Shown here: positions 15,730 through 30,233 of the stretch, piece after piece
Position numbering within the stretch: the stretch's first letter is position 1
Layout of the letters: the number at the start of each line of letters is the position of its first letter
Origin: Brassica napus
Lineage: Eukaryota; Streptophyta; Magnoliopsida; Brassicales; Brassicaceae
DNA: 64,000 nucleotides
NCBI RefSeq assembly: GCF_020379485.1
Contig: NC_063445.1
Span: 52,353,422-52,417,421, forward strand
Reading direction: 5' to 3'
The notes under the pieces: generated by a model
Seen by the model: the letters and a program-made list of their open reading frames with translations, nothing else
Database searches by the model: none
Told to the model about the DNA's origin: nothing
Program-made: the position numbers and the translations under genes

Positions 15730-16075
15730 TTAGAGCACTTGCAATGGTCATCCCCACATTGGGATCTTTGGCAATTGTTTAATATATATATATATATATA
15801 TTTATTTTTTTTTTGAACAGTGAAGGATTCGAGTCCAAAAAGCTCGTCCAATGGTGATTCCGAAGACGGAGTCCTTAGCAATAAAATATTATTATTATTA
15901 TTTTAAAAAAAATTAAAATTGAAAATTTATTAATTGCATAATTAAAATAAAAGGTACAAGGATTCAATTTAAAGATACAAGGATTAAAAGATACAAGGTT
16001 TAAATATAAAGATACTAATTATTAATCTTCATCGCCAAATTTATTCCAAATGTTTTCGATCAAATCATTCTTCAA

Positions 16076-17320
16076 TCATTCACGAGTTTGCCTATCACGA
16101 AGATCATTTCGGTTGGGAAATATATTATTGAGAATTGTCGGGATTTCGTTTAGTGTAGGGTTTGTGTTTAGGACCTCCGAAGTTCTGGAAGATGCTCCTT
16201 CTTCAAATTCTGAAATATCGTACCGCATTGAATAACCATCTCGTTCATCTTCAACTATCATATTGTGTAGTATGATACATGCTCTCATTATCTTCCTTAT
16301 CTTCTCTTTGGCCATTGTACGAACCGGGTTTTTCACAATCGCAAACCGAGCTTGCAATACTCCAAAAGCCCGCTCGACATCTTTTCGGACTGATTCTTGA
16401 ACTTGAGCAAATAACTGTTGTTTAGGACTTTGAGGGAGTGTGATAGTTTGGATAAATGTTGACCATTTTGGATATATACCATCTGTGAGGTAATATGCCA
16501 ACTTATACATGTGGTTGTTGACCATGTACCTCACCCTGGGAGCTCGACCTTCTAAAATGTCATCAAACAGAGGAGATCGATCGAGGACATTAAGATCATT
16601 TAAGGTACCTGGAAGACCAAAAAATGCGTGCCAAATCCAAATATCTTGTGAAGCTACGGCCTCTAGGACAATAGTCGGTTTTCCGTGGCCACGGGCGTAC
16701 TGTCCTTTCCAAGCGGTTGGACAATTTTTCCACTCCCAGTGCATACAGTCAATGCTCCCGACCATCCCAGGAAACCCTCGTTTCTCTCCCATATCGAGTA
16801 GTCGTTGAAGATCCTCTGCTGTGGGTCGTCGCAGATACTCATCTCTGAATAACTGTATTATCTCATCAGTGAAATGATGTAAACAAGAAAGTGCAGTGCT
16901 CTCACCAAGTCGGAGATATTCGTCAACCGTGTCAGCCGAATTTCCATAAGCAAGTAGACGAATTGCTGCCGTACATTTTTGTAGTGCAGTAAGACCCCAC
17001 CTACCCGTTGCATCTTTTCTTTGCTGAAAGAATGGAAAGAATTGTTCAAGGCCATCGACAATACGTATGAATAATCCCTTATTCATGCGGAATCGGCGTC
17101 TGAAAGTTTGTATCGAATATATCGAATGGTCGTCGTTGAAGTAGTCATTGCTTAGTTGGTGCTGTCCTCCTTCGCGGTGTCGTTCAGTATAACTACGGGT
17201 CCTTTGCGGTATGGGTTCGGCCTCCACTATATCGTCGTAAATTTCGTCAATGAAATCTTCGATAATATCATCCAATCTCTCCTCGATTTCATCATTTTCA
17301 TCAGACGAAGATGACGACAT
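16076..17320 (-). CDS. PIF/Harbinger DDE transposase (HARBI1/ALP1-like)
   Basis: 414 residues, single exon, ATG at 17320. Acidic N-terminus (residues 1-40), then the nuclease region. The first catalytic Asp lies in GMVGSIDCMHWEWKNCP, the second in PGTLNDLNVLDRSPLFDD, and the Glu in QESVRKDVERAFGVLQARFAIV, followed by the MRACIILHNMIVED signature of the family. It cuts and rejoins element ends, normally needing the Myb-like partner for nuclear import and TIR binding. The frame stops at a TGA at 16078-16076, but the next 20 codons stay open and encode a tail (KNDLIENIWNKFGDED) that the related copy at 29890 has with an ordinary codon at the TGA position. So the protein has probably lost about 20 C-terminal residues by one recent mutation; the catalytic core is intact. 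Confidence 0.93.
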   Translation of the reverse strand: MSSSSSDENDEIEERLDDIIEDFIDEIYDDIVEAEPIPQRTRSYTERHREGGQHQLSNDYFNDDHSIYSIQTFRRRFRMNKGLFIRIVDGLEQFFPFFQQRKDATGRWGLTALQKCTAAIRLLAYGNSADTVDEYLRLGESTALSCLHHFTDEIIQLFRDEYLRRPTAEDLQRLLDMGEKRGFPGMVGSIDCMHWEWKNCPTAWKGQYARGHGKPTIVLEAVASQDIWIWHAFFGLPGTLNDLNVLDRSPLFDDILEGRAPRVRYMVNNHMYKLAYYLTDGIYPKWSTFIQTITLPQSPKQQLFAQVQESVRKDVERAFGVLQARFAIVKNPVRTMAKEKIRKIMRACIILHNMIVEDERDGYSMRYDISEFEEGASSRTSEVLNTNPTLNEIPTILNNIFPNRNDLRDRQTRE

Positions 17321-17402
17321 TGCTTATCCTGCTGGATAAATAATAATTTGCTTAGAAGGTTTCTTATATTTTTTTGTCTTATAAGTTAAAAATATTTAAA
17401 TT

Positions 17403-17620
17403 TCTTATACTTTTGAATCTTTTCTATTTTTTTTTCTTCTACTTTTAAATATTTAGATTTGTTCTACTTTTGAATCTTTTCTATTTTTTTTTCTTCTACT
17501 TTTAAATATTTAGATTTCTTCTACTTTTGAATCTTTTCTATTTTTTTTTCTTCTACTTTTAAATATTTAGATTTGTTCTACTTTTAAATCTCTTCTATTT
17601 TTTTTTCCTTATAAGTTAAA
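17403..17620. repeat. 57-bp tandem repeat upstream of transposase gene
   Basis: Unit cttctacttttgaatctttt... repeats about 3.5 times with a 57-bp period (starts near 17404, 17461, 17518, 17575), pyrimidine-rich on the plus strand, just upstream of the transposase ATG. Could be part of its promoter or 5' leader. Confidence 0.8.
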
Positions 17621-18290
17621 AATATAATAATTTCCTCTAAGTTTGAAAAATCTCTTCTATTTAGTGAATCTGATATATTTTTTTATCTATTCAATTGGAG
17701 TTTGTTATAACTTTTAAAAAACCAGCGTTTACTAACAACTTTTAAAACTAAATTTTACTAAATGGTTATGATGAAAAAAAAACAAGAAGCAAGTAGCGAA
17801 ACCTGATTATTACAATGGTTATGGTAATAACTTTCAAAAACAAGAAAACGAAAACAAAAACAAGAAGCGAAACCTGATTATGGTTATGGTACGAGAAGCA
17901 TGTTGATGAGATGGATACAAAGGATTGAGAGAAGCAAGTAGTAGAAAAATATTACAATGGTTTTCATTCCAAAATATTACAAAGGTTTTGGTGATAAGGT
18001 TTTTGATGTTGAGGAGAAAGAGATACATATCCGAGTACTTATACTACAAGAAGGGAAAACCCGTGACTTATGAGCAGGAGCTACATGCCAAAATGCTCTC
18101 AGTACTCTAAATCCACCCGTGACAACTCCGCATTAGCTAAGGAACAAAAGAACTCCTATCCTCCCGTGACTACCTGCAACAACACGTTTAAAAAATGGTT
18201 AGTTTAGCTGTAACAACTAAGCAAGTACACACATCACACAACAAGTACTAACTTTTCCTACAAGTGACCTCAAACAACACACAGTACACA

Positions 18291-19178
18291 TCATAACATT
18301 TCAGACATAAGCTTCATTTTTAGTGTTGTTTCGATCTCAGACAATGGCTCTTTCTTGGCCAGCAAGCGATCAAGGAGTTTATTTCTAGACAGTTTTTCCT
18401 TAAGTTCCAAAACGCCTTGTAGCTTATACAACTCCTCATCTCGACCACTCTTCTTCTTCTTACTGGCACCTTTGGCAGCCTTTACCCCGACTGGTCTATC
18501 CTCATCTTCTCCAATAACATTTTCTCCTGGTCCGTCAAGATCCACCACTAGCCTCCGCTTTTCCTTTCCACCATCCTTAACCATATAAGTGGAGGCCCAT
18601 TTCTGCTCATGCCTGAGCTCTCTCCAGCAGTGATCGAGTGTGAACTTGGTATCGTACTTGGTGAAGAATATGTCGTAAGCAGCTTTGATCACATCATTAT
18701 CATTTTGGCCGCTTCTCTGCTCCCCCAGCGCCTGGTTGTAGCAACCAGTGAATCTGGATACTTCATGATTGATCCTAGACCACCTCTGCTTACAAGAAGT
18801 AACCTCTCGTGGTACTTCCCCAACGAGCTGAGGGCTGGCGTTGTAGTAGTCTACAATACGCTTCCAGAAAGCAACAGCTCTCTGCTCGTTGCCTACGAGA
18901 GGGTCCTTACTGGTGTTAAGCCAAACACCAATAAGGATCCTATCCTCTTTGGGTGAATATTTCCTTCTATCTGCAAAGGTCTTAACAGACTCCTCAGGGA
19001 CTTGCCTACGAGACTGACCAGGGACTTGCCTACGAGACTGACCAGGGACTTGACTAGGACACTCAGGTGGGATTTCGCTAGGAGAATCATCAGGAGCTTG
19101 ACACCCGAGCCAAAAAGGCTCGGGTGATTCAAGATCTACTGGCATTTGACTGTACAGCAGGTGTCTATAACCCGACAT
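18291..19178 (-). CDS. Myb/SANT-like DNA-binding protein of PIF/Harbinger element
   Basis: 295 residues, one exon. A Pro/Ser-rich N-terminus contains an eight-residue tandem repeat (VPGQSRRQ twice, then VPEES). Residues ~75-190 form a trihelix-type Myb/SANT domain: KYSPKEDRILIGVWLNTSKD, AFWKRIVDYYN, CKQRWSRINHEVSRFTGCY, then DHCWRELRHEQKW. A basic linker (SKKKKSGRDEE) could act as nuclear signal, and the C-terminus is a predicted coiled coil (LQGVLELKEKLSRNKLLDRLLAKKE). This is the second ORF of plant PIF/Harbinger elements, often misannotated as a glutathione S-transferase-like protein. It would bind sub-terminal motifs and recruit the transposase encoded 970 bp downstream. No stop or frameshift. 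Confidence 0.9.
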   Translation of the reverse strand: MSGYRHLLYSQMPVDLESPEPFWLGCQAPDDSPSEIPPECPSQVPGQSRRQVPGQSRRQVPEESVKTFADRRKYSPKEDRILIGVWLNTSKDPLVGNEQRAVAFWKRIVDYYNASPQLVGEVPREVTSCKQRWSRINHEVSRFTGCYNQALGEQRSGQNDNDVIKAAYDIFFTKYDTKFTLDHCWRELRHEQKWASTYMVKDGGKEKRRLVVDLDGPGENVIGEDEDRPVGVKAAKGASKKKKSGRDEELYKLQGVLELKEKLSRNKLLDRLLAKKEPLSEIETTLKMKLMSEML

Positions 19179-19548
19179 GGCTGTAAAAATGCTCTGTGTT
19201 ACTCAAGTAGTTACACAGAGCCTTAAGTAATACATGTTCCAATTTATTATACAATAAAAGCCTATCAAATCTGAGCAGTTAGGAAGATAGGAAGCAAACT
19301 AAAAGCAATTTAACCAAACACCATTCAAAATCAGTGGCAAAAATCAGTAGCAAAATTAAATCCTATGTACTATAACAGCTATTTAACCAAACACCATTCA
19401 ATTAATCTACAGCAATTTAAACGTAGAACCTTTAAAACCAATCAAATCACACGGGTTGGGAAGATATAAAGCAAATCAGTAGCATTTATTAATACAGTCC
19501 TAGTAGTTTTTTATCTACCTACAAAAACCATTCAATTAATCTACAATA

Positions 19549-20245
19549 TTATTTGAATTTTTTTTTTACGGAATATACATTGTCAAGTGATAGAAAAGAA
19601 AAGCAGAGTACCTTTACTTTTTTGGCCATTGGACAGGTGATAGAACACTCCTCCATTGAAGCCTTTGAAGCTACTCCTATAAACAAGTAACATTAGGCAG
19701 TCAAATGTTTTAATACAAACGCATAAACTGAAAATGAAATCCAAATAAGTCGAGAACTTACCATGTAGAACCAAGATTACCAAACCTATGACCACTAGCA
19801 GGCACACCATTAGCTTAACTCGTGTGGTATCCTTTCCTGCGTCGTACACAGTCTTCTCTAGCAGCAGCAGCTTCTTCTCTCTCTCTGCAACTGCTTCCTT
19901 AAGCCGTCTTATCTCCGTCTGAAATTCCCTCATCTCCTCCATGACCGCGTCATCCCACCACTTCCAGATGTGAGTGGCTCCATCAACGACATTGTTGCAG
20001 GTGAAATACCTACGGCCTGGATCTTTTTCCGTGTAGGCTGTAGCAACAACCGGCTCACTCCCACAGTAGCAGATCGTCGGGATGCCATCATCCCCCTCAG
20101 GTTGAGGTTGGTTCTGAAACGGCTCTCCATTATCGAAGCTACTCTGAGCTTCATCGGCGTACAACTGAGCTTCAGCGTCGAGAAGTGAGGTGATGTCGAT
20201 GGACGCTGATGATGAGGACGGCTGGCTATAGCTATACCTTCCCAT
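19549..20245 (-). CDS. GRF-type zinc-finger protein with C-terminal membrane anchor, inside Harbinger
   Basis: Exon 1 is 20245-19762 (161 codons plus one base), followed by a GT-AG intron. An in-phase exon 2 from 19676 runs to a TAA at 19549, giving ~203 residues; the last exon may end earlier by another splice. An acceptor-like TTTGCAG 12 bp upstream of ATG suggests a 5' UTR intron, also present in the copy at 28752. Residues ~55-100 match the GRF zinc finger (CYCGSEPVV...KDPGRRYFTC...HIWKWWDD), a fold that binds single-stranded nucleic acid in APE2 and topoisomerase III alpha. Then come a coiled coil (EMREFQTEIRRLKEAVAERE) and a hydrophobic helix (VCLLVVIGLVILVLHG). The fourth zinc ligand is lost: GATHIWK where the other copy has GGCHIWK. 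Function in the element is unknown. Confidence 0.78.
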
Positions 20246-20383
20246 TTTCCTTAACCTGCAAAGAAAGAGACAAGCAAAAAGCAAAGATTAGCATTGATTT
20301 TGAAAAACAATAAGAAAGACGAACACCATTCGACACTAAATAGAGTCGCAACCCTAAATCGAATGGAAAAAATGCACAATTTA

Positions 20384-20510
20384 CAAATCCCTAAATCGAT
20401 CGAGACCCAAAAGGGTTTTCAAATCCCTAAATCGATCGAGACCCAAAAGGGTTTTCAAATCCCTAAATCGATCGAGACCCAAAAGGGTCTTCAAATCCCT
20501 AAATCGATCG
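20384..20510. repeat. 36-bp tandem repeat in Harbinger 5' region
   Basis: Three full copies plus a partial fourth of a 36-bp unit starting caaatccctaaatcgatcga, each containing ATCGATCGAT-like palindromic bases and cccaaaaggg. Located between the right TIR and the GRF gene, where transposase/Myb binding sites or the promoter would lie. Confidence 0.9.
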
Positions 20511-21024
20511 AAAACTAATCGAAACCTGATTTAAACGGAAAATAATCAATTGAAACAAAACAAAATCGATTGAAACGAAAGCAAATCGATTGAAAATAAA
20601 AAATCCCCAAATCGCAGATTTTTTTTCGAACCCTAATTTTGATATGAAACGATTCCAACTCTATTGAATATAAATGGAAACAATCTAGTTCGATTAATAT
20701 AGAAAAAAAACGCTTCTACTTACCTTGACGATCAGACGGAGTTGAATCGCGAAGGTGGGATCCGACAATCGCCCTAGAGAGTTGAGAGGTTTTTTTTTTC
20801 TTTGCTTTCGTCGAAATGACGATTTTTTTTTCCCGCCAATACCAAACACCTTCGCGCCTCCGTCCAATCTATTTCCGCCACGTCGCCCACGGACCGGGTC
20901 CGTCAAGATGCAATTTACGGATCAATCCGTCAAATGGGCTGGGTTTATATTAGTTAAAAAATCCAAAAAGTGCAACGGACCGGGCTGACGGATTCGTTGT
21001 CATGCCCCGTTGCAAGTGCTCTTA

Positions 21025-22050
21025 TCATCAGTAAAACACACAAGAAAGTTATGAGGAAAAGAAAATACGCCAAAAATATAAAAATTAGATTGAACATCAG
21101 CTGACCATAGTATGTCGTCTACTTGTAGAAGTTGGAACGTAAGCTCTACCATCTTATTCTTTCTACTTAAAATCTTATACTTACAGTTTTAGAATATGAT
21201 TTCTCTTTTTTCATTTTTATCAAATACATTAGTCAAATCCATCTAAAGTATCATGAATCATATTCTTGATCACCAATCGGAATAGTAATATTCTGTGACT
21301 TGATGGTAAACATCGTTTTCTGTTTTGTTGGATAGTACGACGTATGTATTATGGTAACGTAAGTTATTAGTATGGTATGTCTTTTGGAATTTAGGATCAG
21401 TTTAATTGCATGTGGAAAGCACTCACGGCTTTGATATTACATACAAAGAGCATAGCAAAGGAGATATTTAAAGATTCCTCCACTCATAGACTCGCAACGA
21501 TTAGCCACCTTTCCTTCTCATCGGTCCTGATAAAATAGAGACAAAACAAAGTAAACCCCATCTACTTGTACTATGCGCCCTCAACTATTCATATGTTTTG
21601 TCCTCATATTATCTCTCGTTTGTCTCTTTCTTTCTTTTTTTGATTTTGCTAAATTGTGTCTCTCAAACTGACTTTTCTCTCGTGGCGGCCTCGAAGCAAT
21701 ATCTGGTTCATGAGTAGAGACATCTTATATGTTCATGCCTGCTGCAATTCTCTATTGATATTCATTAGGCTCCCATTTTCTTAAAGGACATTCTTCGATT
21801 TATCTTTCTTTCGAATAATCTGTATATTTTGTAGATTTACATCATACAGAGTTCATGAACTACATATTTAAAATACTTCGATATACTAGAGAAAAAATGG
21901 AAAATCATATGAACTACAAAAGTAAACTTTTGACATATCTTTTAACCGGTGTTTAAGATGGTTTTTATAAGGAATTGTCTATACCGGATTCAGATACCGG
22001 GTATCCAAAGGATATTGTACCAAGACTTTTAATGTGAGTACTAATTGTAA
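21025..22050. other. Intergenic, no supported gene
   Basis: Separates the Harbinger from the first Copia element. No reading frame or structured repeat worth calling. Confidence 0.5.
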
Positions 22051-22055
22051 GTTTG

Positions 22056-22187
22056 TATTGTGTATAATACCGGTTTAAATTAGATAACCAATACGGTTTA
22101 GTTTCCTTTTGCTTAAACCGTGTATATATATACACTTGATTGTAACAAACTTTGGTTAATCAATTCAATCTATTCTTTCATTCAATA
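22056..22187 (+). repeat. 5' LTR of Copia 1
   Basis: 132 bp, TATTGTGTATAATACC ... CATTCAATA, with a TATATATATA segment near 22125-22135. Followed at once by the primer-binding site. Confidence 0.9.
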
Positions 22188-22199
22188 TGGTATCAGAGC
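22188..22199 (+). promoter_or_regulatory. Primer-binding site (initiator tRNA-Met type)
   Basis: TGGTATCAGAGC directly after the LTR, the standard plant Copia primer-binding site complementary to the 3' end of initiator methionine tRNA. Confidence 0.9.
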
Positions 22200-22252
22200 T
22201 GAGACATTTCCTCCCATAGTGATTCCGTGATTTCAATCATCATGAGTCTTTC

Positions 22253-25200
22253 TTGTTCTCAGATTCTTCTTCAGTTCGTTTTCGATTTGATTCTTCTCGA
22301 GTTGGAAATCATCACCTTCGTTTACATTCTCTTGGTTCTCCTTTTCGCATTCTGAATCAAGACTCGTCGATCTCTAAAGTCGATTCATCACTTGAATCGA
22401 GCTCTCATCTTTCAACATTCGTTTTCGTCTTCGCCTCTATGAATCCTAATATAGCTCTGGAAACTACATTCTTGGATCAGTACGAGAATCCCTACTACAT
22501 TCATAGCTCCGATCATGCCGGTCTCATCTTGGTCTTCGATCGTCCTCTTCCGGTGTGGAGTTCCACTCTTGGCGTTGATCGGTGCGTATGGCTCTCAATG
22601 TCCGTAACAAACTCGGATTCATCGATGGTATGATCCCTAAACCTCCGGATAATCATATGGATTCTGGTTCTTGGTCATGATGTAAGGATATGGTAGCTAC
22701 ATGGCTGATGAACTCTGTATCGAAGAAGATAGGTCAAAGTCTCTTGTTTATGTCGACCGCTGATTCGATCTGGAAGAATATACTCTCGCGATTTAAACAG
22801 GAAGATGCTCTGCGGGTTTATGAGATTGAACAACAATTGAGTCGCTTACAACAAGGTTCAATGGATATTAGCACCTATTATACTGCATTGGTCACATTAT
22901 GGGAGGAGCACAAGAACTATGTTGACTTGCCAGTTTGTACTTGTGGCCGTTGTGAATGCAATGCAGCAGCGTTATGGGAGAGTCTTCAACAACGAAGTCG
23001 TGTGACTAAGTTCTTGATGGGACTCAATGAAGCATATGAGCCTACTCGTCGCCACATCTTAATGATCAAGCCAATCCCATCCATTGAAGACGTCTTTAAT
23101 CTTGTCATTCAGGATGAGAGGCAGAAATCTATCAAGTCATCCTTAATACCGGCTACGCAGTCTTTCAGATCTCGGGTCCTGCTTAGTCTCTCTTGAATGC
23201 TGCCTCTCCGTCTGAGAATCCTGTCATGGTTGCTACTCACTCTATTGGTGGCTTTCGTCCAAAGTCTAGAACTCTCTGTACCTAATGTGGTCAACTCGGT
23301 CATGTGGTTGCTAAATGTTTCAAACTCCATGGCTATCCCCCTGGCCATCGCAACAACAGGTCTTCTGCTTCAGCATCTGGCTTTGTACCAAGAGGACAAA
23401 ACAATTATCCGCAACCACGACCACAGATTCATAACAACTTCATACCTCAGCAACCACAATACGCTAATCAAAATGTTGCTGCGAGTGTTCTTCCGGAGCA
23501 GTCTGGTCAGTCTTCAGGACATATGGACAGAAGCCAACTACAATCTCTGATTCAACAGCTCCAGGCCTTTATGACACCTGCTGTGAATGTTGTCACAACT
23601 CAACAATCAACGGTTAATGAAAATGGATACATGGATCCTCAATCCTCAGCTGGTAATGTCTCTTTTGCACCCCTCCTTTCATCACCAAATATAACCATTT
23701 CATTTCCATCAAGTAGCCTTCGTTTTGATAACAATATCCTCACTTTTCAACATCAATGTATTTCTTCTCTTTCCAATGCAATGCCCAATGGTGCTTGGAT
23801 AATTGACAGTGGAACAACTACGCATGTATGCTCAAATATGTCATTGTTTATTCAGACTTCTCCTGTAACTGGCGTTACAGTCTCTCTCCCTAATGGCATT
23901 AGGGAATCAATATCTCATATTAGAACTATGCAATTATCAAAATCTCTTAAATTGCATAATGTTCTGCATGTTCCATCTTTTCGGTTCAATCTTATTAGTG
24001 TTTGTACACTCTTGCATGATAATCACTTGTCTGCTCACTTCTATCCTGATCATTGTTTGATACATGAGTCTACTCAGGGCTGGATGATTGGTAGATGAAG
24101 TTTATTGCGCAATCTATATGTTTTTGAACCTGCTGTTGATTCTTCTCTGGAATTCTGTGGATCCTTGCAAGTAGATGAGAACCTATGGCACCAGCACCTT
24201 GGACATCCATCAACTTCCAAGTTAAAGTATCTTACTGGTACATTGTCTATAACCACGTCTAGTCTACATAAGTCTAAATTTTGTCTTGTTTGTCCATTAG
24301 CTAAACAAAAAAAGATTGCCATTTGTATCGAATAATAACATGTCATAGTCTGCTTTTGATTTGGATCACTTAGATGTATGGGGTCCCTTTGGTATTGAGT
24401 CAATAGAAGGATACAAGTATTTTCTTACATTAGTCGATGATTGTACACGAGCTATTTGGGTTTATATGATGAAAAATAAATCAGATGTTTCGAAAGTCTT
24501 TCCACTTTTTTTTAAGCATGTCAAGACACAATATAAAACTGATGTTAAAGCGATATGTAGTGACAATGCACCTGAACTTGTATTCACTCAACTTCTTCAA
24601 GAACATAGCATTTTTGATCAATACTCATGTGCTTATACTCCACAGCAGAACTCTGTTGTAGAGAGAAAGCATCAACATATTCTTAATGTTGCGAGAGCTT
24701 TGTTATTTCAATCTAACATCCCACTAATATACTGGAGTGATTGCATATGTACTGATGCCTTTCTCATAAACATAACTCCTTCTGCTTTGTTACATGATAA
24801 ATCACCTTATGAGGTCTTGCTTAAGAAAGTTCCTGATTACTCTTTCTCAAAACATTCGGTTGCTTATGTTATGCATCTACTTTACTTAAAGACAGAAACA
24901 AATTCTCTGCTAGAGCTGATAGATGTGTATTCTTAGGTTTTCCGAGTGGTTACAAAGGCTATAAAGTGCTACATCTTGATTCAAATAATATCACTGTTAC
25001 ACGAAACATTGTCTTTTATGAAAACGCATTTCCATTTATTGATACATCTTTCTCTGTTTCACCTTCTCTGAACATCTTTGATAGAACTATCTTGCCTGCT
25101 CATATTCATGTTGTCCTTGATTCTGTGATTCCAACACCTATAGTTCCTAATGCCACAAACATACATAGAGAGACTATTCCAGTAGCTACAGGGCAAGGAC

Positions 25201-26878
25201 GACTACTCGGTGACAGACCTAAGTGTCATACCAGAGCTCATGGTTACTTATCTCAATACCATTGTGCTCTTGCTCAGAGTATTCTTGTTCTAACCCCTTT
25301 AACACATTCATCTCCTGTTTCATATCCTATTTCCTCTGTTCTAGCCTATGATAAACTTAATTCCCTTTATAAATCTTATGTTATTTCCTATTCTCTTGAG
25401 ACAGAACCAACATCTTTTAAGCAGGCCATGTTATCTCCACATTTTCGAAAAGCCACGATTGATGAGTTGCAGGCTATGGAGGCAAATAAGACATGGACTG
25501 TTGAATCTTTACCTCCGGGTAAAAATGTAGTTGGTTGCAAATGGGTATATACCATTAAGTACAATACAGACGGTACCATAGAGCGTTATAAAGCACATTT
25601 GGTGGCTAAGGGTTTCACACAACATGAAGGGGTAGATTTCACTGATACATTCTCACCAGTGGCTAAACTTGCTAGTGTGAAACTTCTTCTTGGTATTGCA
25701 GCTATACAAGGATGGAGCATGTCTCAAATGGACGTCTCTAATGTGTTTTTGCATAGTGATCTTGATGAGGAAATCTTTATGAGCATTCCTCAGGGTTATG
25801 TACCCGTTTCTGGCTCTCTTCCTCCTAATCCAGTATGTCGACTTCACAAGTTGCTCTATGGATTGAATCAAGCCTCACGTCAGTCGTACCATTGTCTTTC
25901 TGAGGTCTTCTTCTCACCTGGTTATACTCAATCTCCAGCGGATAACACATTCTTTGTCAAGCAACAAGGCTTTGTTTTCACTGCAGCTCTTGTTTATGTC
26001 GATGACATTATGATTGTTGACAATAATGATGAAGAAGTTGCTTCCCTCAAGAAGACTCTGAGTTCTCGTTTCAAGATCAAGGACTTAGGACAACTACGTT
26101 TCTTCCTTGGCTTGGAGATTGCACGATCATCTGAAGGCATCTCTATCTCTCAACGAAAATATGCGTTGAGTCTTCTATCTGATGCTGGTCTTCTTGCTTG
26201 TAAGCCGAGTTCTGTACCTATGGATCCTTTGGTTAAGTTGAGTAAAGAATATGGTACTCTGCTTCAAGATCCCAACAGCTACTGTGCCTTGATTGGTTAT
26301 CTTCTATATCTCACAATCACTCGTCCTGACATCACCTTTGTGGTACATTGTCTGAGACAGTTCATGCAATCTCCTACGGATATTCATCTCGAAGCAGCTC
26401 ACAAGATACTCCGGTACATCAAGAACAATCCCGGGCAGGGACTATTCTACTATGGTTCTTCTCGGTTGTGTCTTAATGCATTTTTTGATGCTAATTGGGG
26501 AACATGTCATATGATAGTAGACGCTCTCTTACTGGTTATTGTGTCTACCTTGGAAACTCCTTGATCACATGGAAGTCGAAGAAATAGGGCGTGGTTAGCC
26601 GGAGTAGTACGGAGGCTGAATATCGCAGCATGGCGCATGCTACTTGTGAGTTAATTTGGCTACAACAGCTTCTCACGAATCTTAACATCAAGGTTTCGAC
26701 AAATGCAAAGCTCTTCTGTGATTATAAGTCTGCAATGCATATCGCCACCAATCCGGTCTTCCACGAACGAACGAAGCACGTGGAGAAAGATTGCCACACC
26801 GTCCGTGATCAGGTCAAGAAAGGCTTCATTACACTAATGCACGTCTCAAGTGCTAATCAGCATGCTGATATATCATGA
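22253..26878 (+). pseudogene. Broken gag-pol of Copia 1
   Basis: Translation shows the Copia order in several frames: gag (FLDQYENPYYIHSSDHAG near 22460; KFLMGLNEAYEPTRRHI near 23010), protease (WIIDSGTTTHVCS near 23795), the integrase zinc region and core (ENLWHQHLGHPS near 24178; SDNAPEL near 24560; TPQQNSVVERKHQ near 24640), reverse transcriptase ([11 protein letters not shown] near 25535, YVDDIMIV near 25995) and RNase H (SSTEAEYRSMAHATCELIW near 26600). Stops or frameshifts break it near 22630-22690, 23200-23300, 24100, 24335, 24936 and 26564-26590, so no polyprotein can be made. The gag zinc-knuckle region spans a frameshift. RT catalytic YVDD is retained. Coding decay looks heavier than the ~3% LTR divergence would suggest, hinting that the element was copied in trans. 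Confidence 0.92.
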
Positions 26879-27061
26879 CGAAGCCTCTCCACTCTGGACC
26901 ATTTCATTCTATTCTTAACCGTATGTCTATCCCAAGTCTCTTCCTTCCACCTGATGGTTCAGTTTCAGCGAATTGACTGTGGCATATTGTGTATAATACC
27001 GGGTTAAATTAGATAACCAATACGGTTTAGTTTCCTTTTGCTTAAATCGTGTATATATATA

Positions 27062-27251
27062 CACTTGATCAAGGCCGGCCCTGAGATTTTGGAGGCTTGT
27101 GGGTGTGTCTATGTAAAAAAAAAAATTTACAAATCTGGGGGCCTAAAATTTTTTTTCGGGGGCCTATTCGTATGTAATTTTTTTAAAAAAATTTGGAGGC
27201 CGGTTGCAAATGTTTCACAACGCATTCCCTAGGGCCGGCCTTGCACTTGAT
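27062..27251. mobile_element. 174-bp hAT-like MITE inside Copia 1 LTR
   Basis: 8-bp duplication cacttgat at 27062-27069 and 27244-27251; element 27070-27243 with perfect 13-bp inverted ends CAAGGCCGGCCCT / AGGGCCGGCCTTG. The interior contains GGGGGCCTA motifs and poly-A/T runs, no coding capacity. The 5' LTR of the same Copia element shows the empty site, proving insertion. Confidence 0.95.
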
Positions 27252-28098: not shown

Positions 28099-28751
28099 TT
28101 AGACCAGCCGCAACGCTGATCCTTAATAGATCCTTAGCGCCTAATCCGATGGTTATCGGAATAAAGAAATATTATTTAACCGAAATAATCAAAGGATCAA
28201 TCCGTAAATAAAGATTTAACGGAGTTGATCCTTAGAGACGTGGCACGTTTTGGTTCGTCCGTCGGCTTTGTCATTCGTACGTATCAAAAAAAAATTATTC
28301 ATTTTCGACCAAAGGCGAGGAAAAAAGAAATGTCTCGAGTGAAGGCGATATCAAAGGCGATTCGATCCATCCCGAGAAGAAGGTAAATCGTAGGGTGATT
28401 TTGTTGATTTATGCGTCGAGATTTTTTTTTCTTTGTTGTTTTCTCCTCAAATTAGGGTTAGGTTGTGAAGATTCAATCAATTTGTCTTTTAAAATTAGAG
28501 TTTCAATCGATTTGGGGTTTTCACTCGATTTAGGGTTTTCAATCTATTTTGTTTTGAAATGATTTGCGGATATTCTCGTTCAATTACAATCTTCTTTGAT
28601 GTCCTTATTTGTGTTAGCTTACAGTTTATATGTGATTCATGTTTGCTTACGGTTTGTTCAATCCGTGCTCGTTTCTAAAGATCTGTGGTTGTTGTTGTTT
28701 ATATCATCTTCGTTACTAAGAATCTTGGTTTTCTTTCAGGTTTAACCAATC

Positions 28752-29349
28752 ATGGGACAAGACTATTCGTACAGCCAGCCGTCTTCGTCAGATGAGTTCG
28801 ACATGACGTACCTTCTTGAAGCAGAGGCTGCTCTTTACGCGGATGAAGGACAGAGTAGTTTCTCTGTTGGCGAGCCGGTTCGCAACCCACCTGAGGCTGA
28901 TGATGGCATCCCAACGAGATGTTACTGTGGCAGTGAGGCTGCTATTGCAACATCTTACACGCGAAAAGATCCAGGGAGGTTGTACTAGACGTGCGAGAAT
29001 AGAGATGATGGGGGCTGCCACATATGGAAATGGTGGGATGTGGCAGTTACGGAGGAGGTGTTTGAGGTTCAAAGAGAACTCAGGCTGCTTAAGGAGCAAG
29101 GTTTCGAGTGTGATCAGAAGCTGCTTAAGCTACATAAGACCGTCTGTGAGCTCAAGAAGAACAAAGAGTCTACAAATGGCTATGCATTGGAAGTTTGTGT
29201 AATGGTCTCCGTATTGGTTTTTCTAGGTTTGGCGCTTATGTTTGTCAATGGTACGTATCTCTCTTGAGTTTTTATTTGTTCTTCATGATATTTTGTAAAA
29301 CTTATGACAATTTGATCTAATGTTTATGCAGGAAGAGCTTCAAAGATGT
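28752..29349 (+). pseudogene. GRF zinc-finger gene with in-frame stop (Harbinger copy 2)
   Basis: Begins MGQDYSYSQPSSS, paralogous to the copy at 20245 (MGRYSYSQPSSSS). The GRF finger reads CYCGSEAAIATS...KDPGRLY, then a TAG at 28986-28988, then TCENRDDGGCHIWKWWD, so all four cysteines are present but the frame is cut inside the finger. Downstream are the same coiled coil (VQRELRLLKEQG) and hydrophobic helix (VCVMVSVLVFLGLALMFVNG). A conserved GT-AG intron follows VNG (donor at 29251) with the last exon ending TAA at 29347-29349. The 5' UTR acceptor TTTCTTTCAG is also conserved. Apart from the single stop the gene is well preserved. Confidence 0.85.
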
Positions 29350-29585
29350 AAACGAGAGTGTCGAGAAGCTCGAGTCTCTCTTTAGGTACGATACCACAAC
29401 TGCCTAGTCTCTTTTCTAATAACTATAAACGTATAGTAGTGTATTTGTATTTGTATTTGTATACCTCATAAATTGGTTCTAGTTTAGTAGAAGCTAGTTG
29501 TTTGGTTTCTCTGCATTGGTGGTAATTGCTAGTTAAGTAGAACCTATTTAGTTTGGTTTCTATCTTCCTACCGCCATAGATTTGA

Positions 29586-29893
29586 TTGTTTTGCGATTGT
29601 GAAGAACCCGGTAAAAACATTGGACAAAGCAAAGATAAGCAAGATTATGAGAGCATGTATCATACTACACAATATGATAGTCGAAAATGTACGGGATGGA
29701 TACGGTACATAATTTGATATATCTGATTTTGAAGAAGGGAACGTAACCAGAAGTTCACGGGTGGAAGCCAACATGCCTACAAATCTCAACAACATATTTC
29801 TCATTCGGAATGTGTTCGGGATACTCGTATACATGAACATTTGAAAACAGATCTAATTGAGCATATTTGGAACAAATTTGGTGAAGAATATTA
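29586..29893 (+). pseudogene. C-terminal fragment of Harbinger transposase (copy 2)
   Basis: Translates to FAIVKNPVKTLDKAKISK, IMRACIILHNMIVENVRDGY, a stop, FDISDFEEG and, after a frameshift, the KTDLIEHIWNKFGEEY tail ending TAA at 29891-29893. It aligns to the last ~100 residues of the transposase at 16076. At the site where that gene has a premature TGA, this copy has a CAT codon. Confidence 0.88.
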
Positions 29894-30233
29894 ATAAGTC
29901 TTGTATCTTTTTATTGAATCATGAATAATAAATAAAAATTTTAATTTCATTTTTTTTTTTAATTATTTATTTATTCCTAAGGATTCCAAATCGAGTATCA
30001 ACATTGCACATGCTCTTACAAGGTTCAATAACTCTAGTTACAAGTGTAGACAAAACCTAAATAAAGTAAACCATCTAGTTCTTCTACGAAATTGAAGTCT
30101 CTCTTTTCCTCTGTGCAAGTTCACACGGGTTTATATATGTGGACATATTAATGACTCGTTGATGATGTGTAAAATGACTCGATAGAAATAGTAAACAACC
30201 AAAATACAAAGACAATTAAAAAAAAATTTATAG

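Follow-up and report, generated by a model that had tools for sequence, protein, structure and literature searches.

A predicted membrane-anchored third protein with an optional GRF-type zinc finger in a clade of Brassica PIF/Harbinger transposons

It is usual to regard cut-and-paste transposons as machines that work solely in the nucleus, and those of the PIF/Harbinger kind are recognised by a TTA/TAA duplication, short terminal repeats, a DDE transposase and a Myb-like second protein. In a stretch of 64,000 nucleotides of Brassica napus DNA (hereafter the window), one such element carries an additional gene. An earlier note regarded its product, a GRF-type zinc finger protein, as an established cargo or accessory factor of the family, and named two findings that would speak against this, namely that most related elements lack the gene or that it evolves neutrally. 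This raises the question of whether the third gene is a regular constituent of these transposons and, if so, which part of its protein is of use to them. Two open reading frames are described for PIF and Pong elements in the available part of PMC5543537, while the 'third ORF' mentioned in the available part of PMC7998251 concerns retrotransposons, that is, other elements. No description joining a GRF-type finger with a Harbinger or other transposable element was found in open-licence papers, an earlier description elsewhere, including in repeat databases, being possible.

Element 1 and its three genes

Element 1 is complete and extends over 5289 bp (15733..21021, minus strand), with an identical TTA target site duplication on both sides (15730-15732 and 21022-21024) and paired ends. 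The terminal inverted repeats, located at 21008..21021 (third-gene end) and 15733..15746 (transposase end), both on the minus strand, read GAGCACTTGCAATG on the left and GAGCACTTGCAACG on the right (reverse strand), and 13 of their 14 bases pair, with one mismatch. The third gene, the Myb-like ORF and the DDE ORF follow one another in this order on the minus strand, which bears out the TTA-flanked element with a GRF-type finger, coiled-coil and hydrophobic-helix gene, a Myb-like gene and a DDE gene on a single strand that had been read at this position. The DDE ORF (16076..17320, minus strand, 414 aa) matches PF04827 with an E value of 3.4e-109 and PF13359 with one of 6.2e-14. By its target duplication, its short terminal inverted repeats and its Harbinger-kind DDE transposase, element 1 is a PIF/Harbinger transposon, and together with its putative Myb-like protein these features liken it to the two-gene elements of this group (rice Ping/Pong, grass PIF), whereas the clade to which it belongs differs from PIF and Pong in having a third gene.

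The Myb/SANT-like ORF (18291..19178, minus strand, 295 aa) yielded sub-threshold Pfam matches only (PF13873, E 0.044; PF14303, E 0.00026; Myb_DNA-bind_5 and NAM-associated), and some of its database relatives carry the name 'Myb-like domain-containing'. Among its database relatives the name 'glutathione S-transferase T3-like' is also frequent, a misleading annotation that probably stems from host GST genes in which a domain of this kind has been fused. A conserved 29-nt hairpin (CTCTGTG...CACAGAG; 19192..19220, minus strand) lies just 5' of the Myb ATG, and recurs about 5-14 nt before this codon in both close and distant elements (L032-L037, L069 and L070). When five examples were folded, no more than 3 of 200 shuffled sequences surpassed each of them (z -2.4 to -4.5), and the evidence from pairing is mixed, since an A.A mismatch is replaced by a C-G pair in 6 of 9 sequences while two other pairs are broken in two and three sequences; no Rfam match was obtained within element 1. 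Between the Myb and DDE genes, tandem-like AT-rich repeats occupy 17360-17640, and repeated matches are also seen there in related copies.

The third gene (20245-19549, minus strand) comprises 203 codons in two exons, its splicing being predicted from the sequence and from a spliced database relative (P0005). Exon 1 (19762..20245) encodes a YSYSQPSSS motif, an acidic helix, the GRF finger, a coiled coil and the hydrophobic helix, directly after which an 85-nt GT..AG intron (19677..19761) is followed by exon 2 (19549..19676), ending in TAA and encoding a tail of 41 aa for the window copy, as compared to 19 aa in P0005, whose tail is in a different frame. A second hydrophobic stretch, present in the unspliced ORF of 220 aa, was rejected as a part of the protein as it lies within the intron. 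A splice-acceptor-like sequence (CAG followed by GTTAAGGAAA; 20246..20258, minus strand) was read just 5' of the ATG, and since CAG precedes this codon in 13 of the 14 elements read (GAG in L072), an intron in the 5' UTR is likely. Several database gene models (P0003, P0033 and P0165) fuse the third gene with the Myb gene; as they do so at varying points they were read as annotation artefacts rather than as a GRF-Myb fusion made by alternative splicing, though the two genes may share a transcript.

Within exon 1 (all features on the minus strand), the N-terminal motif (residues 1-12; 20210..20245) is the most conserved part and is present in finger-type as well as fingerless forms of the protein. 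The predicted GRF-type zinc ribbon (residues 58-98; 19952..20074) matches PF06839 with an E value of 0.00062 and a score of 20.3 bits, short of the 25.9 that the curated cut-off demands, and a match to DUF730 was likewise below cut-off. In the subfamily of the window the fourth zinc-binding Cys is replaced, here by Thr (CNNVVDGATHIWKWW as against the usual ..DCHIWKWW), and the four-ligand pattern is consequently incomplete. An AlphaFold model of exon 1 (161 aa, 103 sequences; mean pLDDT 77.4, pTM 0.43) predicts helices at residues 18-38, 49-52 and 97-160, with a small ribbon ahead of the long helix, and the two top Foldseek matches in the PDB are Zf-GRF domains of NEIL3, with weak E values of 0.5 and 0.57 (probability 0.84 and 0.69, rmsd 2.1 and 2.4). 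The coiled coil (residues 97-137; 19835..19957) forms part of this one continuous predicted helix, in keeping with weak profile matches to PDB entries which were mostly coiled coils (GCN4, coronin; best E 0.009), and the C-terminal hydrophobic helix (residues 144-161; 19763..19816) is a predicted tail anchor. A coiled-coil helix that runs into a hydrophobic stretch and a short tail is the plan of a tail-anchored protein, and the model thus suggests a membrane-anchored adaptor. N-myristoylation of the MG start was considered and dropped, the consensus fitting only part of the family.

The window contains a second, internally deleted relative, element 2 (28102..30015, plus strand), which is flanked by TTA on both sides and whose ends pair at 9 of 14 bases. 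It does retain a GRF gene and a transposase tail, as previously claimed, yet in this third gene (28752..29267, plus strand, the frame being followed to a second stop) codon 79 (28986-28988), inside the finger, is an in-frame stop that disrupts the gene, and the remnant of the transposase C-terminus was delimited approximately, by eye, at 29590..29890 (plus strand). Retrotransposon-like sequence, of Copia type by appearance, lies between the two Harbinger elements at about 22000-27100.

Constancy of the third gene among related loci

The 997-Mb Brassica napus assembly was searched and the best candidates were scored (DDE, 101 of 3100; GRF, 150 of 1094; Myb, 133 of 2052; in further searches, the best 150 each of 944, 826, 462 and 615), and since the counts given below rest on best-scoring candidates they describe this clade rather than Harbinger elements at large. 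Sixteen close copies with both ends visible entered the analysis through the third-gene search, and identical TAA or TTA trinucleotides border 15 of these 16, element 1 included (the exception being L018+L042); L029 and L030 have common flanks and probably represent one site. As these copies were found by means of the third gene, they are uninformative as to how often it is present, for which reason its frequency was determined from the Myb and DDE genes.

Among the DDE loci (best 101 of 3100), 77 of 101 have a GRF match on the same strand no more than 8 kb upstream, at a median distance of 2879 bp, compared to 0 of 101 with a match downstream and 2 of 101 with one on the opposite strand, an asymmetry which shows that the association is not due to chance. 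Once fingerless forms are added, the same 101 loci comprise 77 finger-type, eight fingerless, one partial and 15 without a third-gene match. Where a Myb gene accompanies the DDE gene, among these best candidates, the third gene lies upstream on the same strand in 70 of 72 loci (61 finger-type and nine fingerless or partial), while it is found in 16 of the 29 DDE loci without Myb (again of the best 101 of 3100). The Myb loci (best 133 of 2052) give a similar picture, with 108 finger-type, 14 fingerless, three partial and eight lacking the gene. In the close family (DDE identity of at least 92%), a reading of the match lists places the third gene, in some cases as a fragment, in 19 of 21 loci. 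The two without it, L041 and L047, which also figure among the 15 DDE loci without a match (best 101 of 3100), have kept the 5' end and suffered internal deletions by which the Myb gene, too, was lost wholly or in part.

The notion that related elements lack the third gene was accordingly rejected, as L072-L075, at first sight devoid of it, carry it in a fingerless form and, of the 15 DDE loci without a match, L041 and L047 are internal-deletion copies. Gene order is also preserved in the distant finger-type elements L069-L071, whose frames are mostly open, that of the L071 DDE being interrupted. Of these, L070 is complete (4719 bp, TAA duplication, 13 of 14 terminal bases paired); the terminal-repeat scan that was used for element 1 returned a low-complexity candidate with three mismatches in L069 and nothing in L071, L073, L074 and element 2. 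This gene is therefore a regular member of the gene set of these transposons and no one-off capture, in agreement with the earlier note, whose alternative of a gene missing from most related elements is contradicted by its presence in 70 of the 72 loci mentioned above. The relatives named among the protein matches listed (best 120 of 134, 564 and 673, many rows being nameless) belong to Brassica, Raphanus, Sinapis and Eruca, and a clade of PIF/Harbinger transposons with three genes exists in Brassica and its close relatives. Six near-identical copies of the third gene and Myb, without a DDE match among those listed, were observed at C243:48809432-48896795 and C717:35051; five of them are clustered on a single contig in a span of about 90 kb, seemingly as a result of segmental duplication.

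Divergence of the third gene follows that of Myb closely (Mantel r 0.80, p 0.0001, 12 elements) and that of DDE less so (r 0.54, p 0.0075, nine elements), the value for Myb against DDE being 0.58 (p 0.006, 11 elements). These figures derive from a blast-based extraction without L036, to which 18 chosen representatives were offered; with a rougher ORF extraction, which admits L036 and truncated Myb and DDE reads, they fall to r 0.27 for third gene and Myb (11 elements, p 0.13) and r 0.33 for third gene and DDE (seven elements, p 0.06). Between L069 and L073, DDE differs by 7%, Myb by 33% and the third gene by 56%, a discordance which indicates that elements have exchanged the DDE and the third-gene/Myb blocks with one another. 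A simple joint inheritance of the three genes was thus rejected, DDE having been swapped relative to the third gene and Myb.

Loss of the finger and selection on the third gene

In L072-L075 the third gene occupies its usual place and retains the N-terminus (MGQ.YSY.QPSSS; the start is missing in L075), the coiled coil and the hydrophobic helix, while the zinc ribbon is absent; a Pfam search with three fingerless proteins, one per type, detected no GRF domain. Genome searches with two fingerless proteins (best 150 each of 462 and 615) revealed 12 copies of fingerless family A, eight of which are without a stop, and four, five and five copies of B1, B2 and B3, respectively, all without a stop, in addition to one split copy. 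The break points differ, as A has no trace of the finger, B1 and B2 have retained only CGGH, and B3 has kept the first strand and lost the rest. In coiled coil and anchor, A is 58-62% identical to the window clade and B about 40-48%, and this closeness of A, as compared to B, calls for at least two separate losses of the finger, and probably three. From these comparisons the finger is a dispensable part of the protein, which at least two lineages, and probably three, have deleted while keeping the N-terminal motif, the coiled coil and the hydrophobic helix.

Ligands were counted in 216 third-gene proteins (168 from the database and 48 from the loci): 150 have all four, in 28 another residue stands in place of the fourth Cys (19 of these being loci of the window subfamily), 22 are fingerless (among them L036, whose frame is broken) and 16 are of other or partial form. 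The C-terminal hydrophobic helix exceeds the cut-off in 171 of 213 proteins, and many of the 42 that fail appear by eye to be short or fused gene models. This degree of conservation makes a membrane anchor, which the earlier note had proposed, a fair prediction. That the protein handles single-stranded DNA, as the same note had suggested, sits poorly with the deletion of the finger in several lineages that keep the rest, and with the loss of one of its four zinc ligands in element 1 itself.

Between elements, 11 finger-type genes compared in 55 pairs yield a dN/dS of 0.38 for the third gene (ratio of means), as compared to 0.27 for Myb (21 pairs) and 0.20 for DDE (45 pairs), the sets of elements differing in part from that of the third gene. 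By pair, 45 of the 55 values lie at 0.25-0.45 and eight at 0.46-0.82 (L037 and L038 against L064/L069, and others), while the remaining two (3.8 and 5.3) come from close-family pairs in which synonymous change is nearly absent. Region by region (pN/pS, 10 elements), the finger scores 0.37, the N-terminus 0.50, the coiled coil 0.61 and the hydrophobic helix 0.62, and being the best conserved region where it is present, the finger is not idle there. Pooled pN/pS of the fingerless forms amounts to 0.47 for A (five genes) and to 0.33, 0.35 and 0.24 for B1, B2 and B3 (four genes each). The third gene is thus under purifying selection between subfamilies.

Inside the close family, where mean dS is 0.015-0.036, the third gene has a ratio of 1.47 over all pairs, as against 0.50 in Myb and 1.06 in DDE, and for changes seen in a single copy the ratios are 0.65, 1.37 and 1.05, respectively. 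Shared changes, counted as nonsynonymous to synonymous, stand at 15.5:1.5 for the third gene, 9:13 for Myb and 15:10 for DDE (L012, L014-L017 and L029 were dropped from the single/shared division as segmental duplicates). The third gene differs in this respect from Myb (Fisher p 0.0007-0.003) and to a lesser extent from DDE (p 0.016-0.08); relative to neutrality it is not clearly different (p 0.07-0.20), while Myb (p 0.0002) and DDE (p 0.04) lie below it. In the window subfamily, where the ligand is lost, the third gene is either relaxed or quickly changed, and neutrality, which the comparisons between subfamilies contradict, is compatible with the data inside this young group.

Possible role of the third protein

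We lean towards the view that the third protein, with its predicted membrane anchor, serves the Myb/transposase pair as an adaptor or regulator, the GRF finger being an optional addition to it. Its parts would be an N-terminal motif with an acidic helix, the zinc ribbon where present, and a long coiled-coil helix leading into a C-terminal membrane anchor. Such a protein would reside in the membrane of the ER or nuclear envelope and oligomerise through its coiled coil, and its N-terminal half may hold the Myb protein and/or the transposase and so set, by retention or by delivery, how much of these reaches the DNA, with the finger, in those forms that have it, adding a contact to nucleic acid. 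Control by location would be in line with a known theme, as rice ORF1 and TPase, which move elements in yeast, were optimised for it by strengthening the nuclear localisation signal and taking out the nuclear export signal, according to the available part of PMC9921582; the same rice proteins work there without a third protein, indicating that the latter is not needed in general. Against an adaptor role are the lack of purifying selection on the third gene among shared changes in the close subfamily of the window, the partial decoupling of the third gene from DDE (L069/L073), the 42 of 213 proteins which fail the hydrophobic-helix cut-off and the 15 of 101 DDE loci (best 101 of 3100) without a third-gene match. 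A more specific form of this model is put forward only tentatively. In it, the tethered protein would bring the Myb/transposase complex to the ER or nuclear envelope and regulate how active the complex is, with the anchor and coiled coil as the selected core and the finger as an exchangeable module (kept, degraded or deleted).

The GRF finger might instead be the main part, binding single-stranded DNA or recruiting repair factors at excision or insertion sites while the helix merely positions the protein. The four ligands are kept in 150 of 216 proteins, no other region is as constrained as the finger in the forms that have it (pN/pS 0.37), single-stranded DNA is bound by the Zf-GRF of APE2 (available part of PMC6122073) and the top PDB matches of the model are NEIL3 Zf-GRF domains (weak E values, 0.5 and 0.57); however, several multi-copy lineages with open frames have deleted the finger, the window subfamily has spread recently without the fourth Cys (28 of 216 proteins), 15 of 16 copies having intact duplications, and a membrane anchor would be ill suited to work at chromosomal breaks, for which reasons we regard this explanation as unlikely. 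A function in protecting the element from its host, with the protein serving as a membrane-bound decoy or scaffold against silencing or repair signalling and not acting on the element's own proteins, would accommodate the excess of shared changes (15.5:1.5) alongside a constrained Myb as the outcome of an arms race, though this excess is not significant against neutrality (p 0.07-0.20); co-divergence with Myb and a fixed place beside it point rather to the element's own machinery, and such a function also seems improbable.

Least probable in our estimation is a passenger, i.e. a host gene that was captured once, has hitch-hiked since and is kept for its place between terminal repeat and Myb, for instance because it would carry the promoter. 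The third gene is indeed the first after the terminal repeat, an upstream noncoding exon is probable, any promoter role being putative, the close subfamily is without purifying selection on the gene, and several database models (P0003, P0033 and P0165) fuse it with Myb. A dN/dS of 0.25-0.45 in 45 of 55 pairs, the many fingerless copies with open frames and the conservation of motifs at both ends of the protein nonetheless speak against a passenger.

The predicted zinc ribbon of the third protein resembles that of the Zf-GRF proteins APE2 and NEIL3, the GRF domains of the latter being the top structural matches (at weak E values), and topoisomerase III alpha is another protein with such a domain; unlike APE2 and NEIL3, the third protein is small, a predicted tail-anchored coiled coil without an enzyme domain, in which the finger is optional and, in the window, short of one ligand. 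By name and Pfam match, many third-gene proteins resemble the At4g04775-like or DUF730 plant proteins, annotations which mention no transposon, whereas at the B. napus loci studied these genes sit within transposons. Next to Ulp1-protease ORFs (PF02902) at L004 and L008 stand further GRF genes, which are similar in having a GRF finger, a possible coiled coil by appearance and a probable mobile-element neighbour, but no comparable Myb or DDE ORF occurs within these 3-kb loci and the association is a separate one; L001 contains a GRF protein that has DUF7900 and, by appearance, a hydrophobic tail. Recruitment of GRF proteins may have taken place in several groups of transposons.

A conserved, predicted membrane-anchored protein inside cut-and-paste transposons would represent a new kind of accessory factor, and raises the testable question of whether transposons regulate themselves through membrane tethering of the proteins they encode, for which the natural fingerless forms provide ready-made domain deletions. 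Many Brassica genes currently annotated as 'At4g04775-like' or GRF-type would, moreover, be reclassified as transposon genes.
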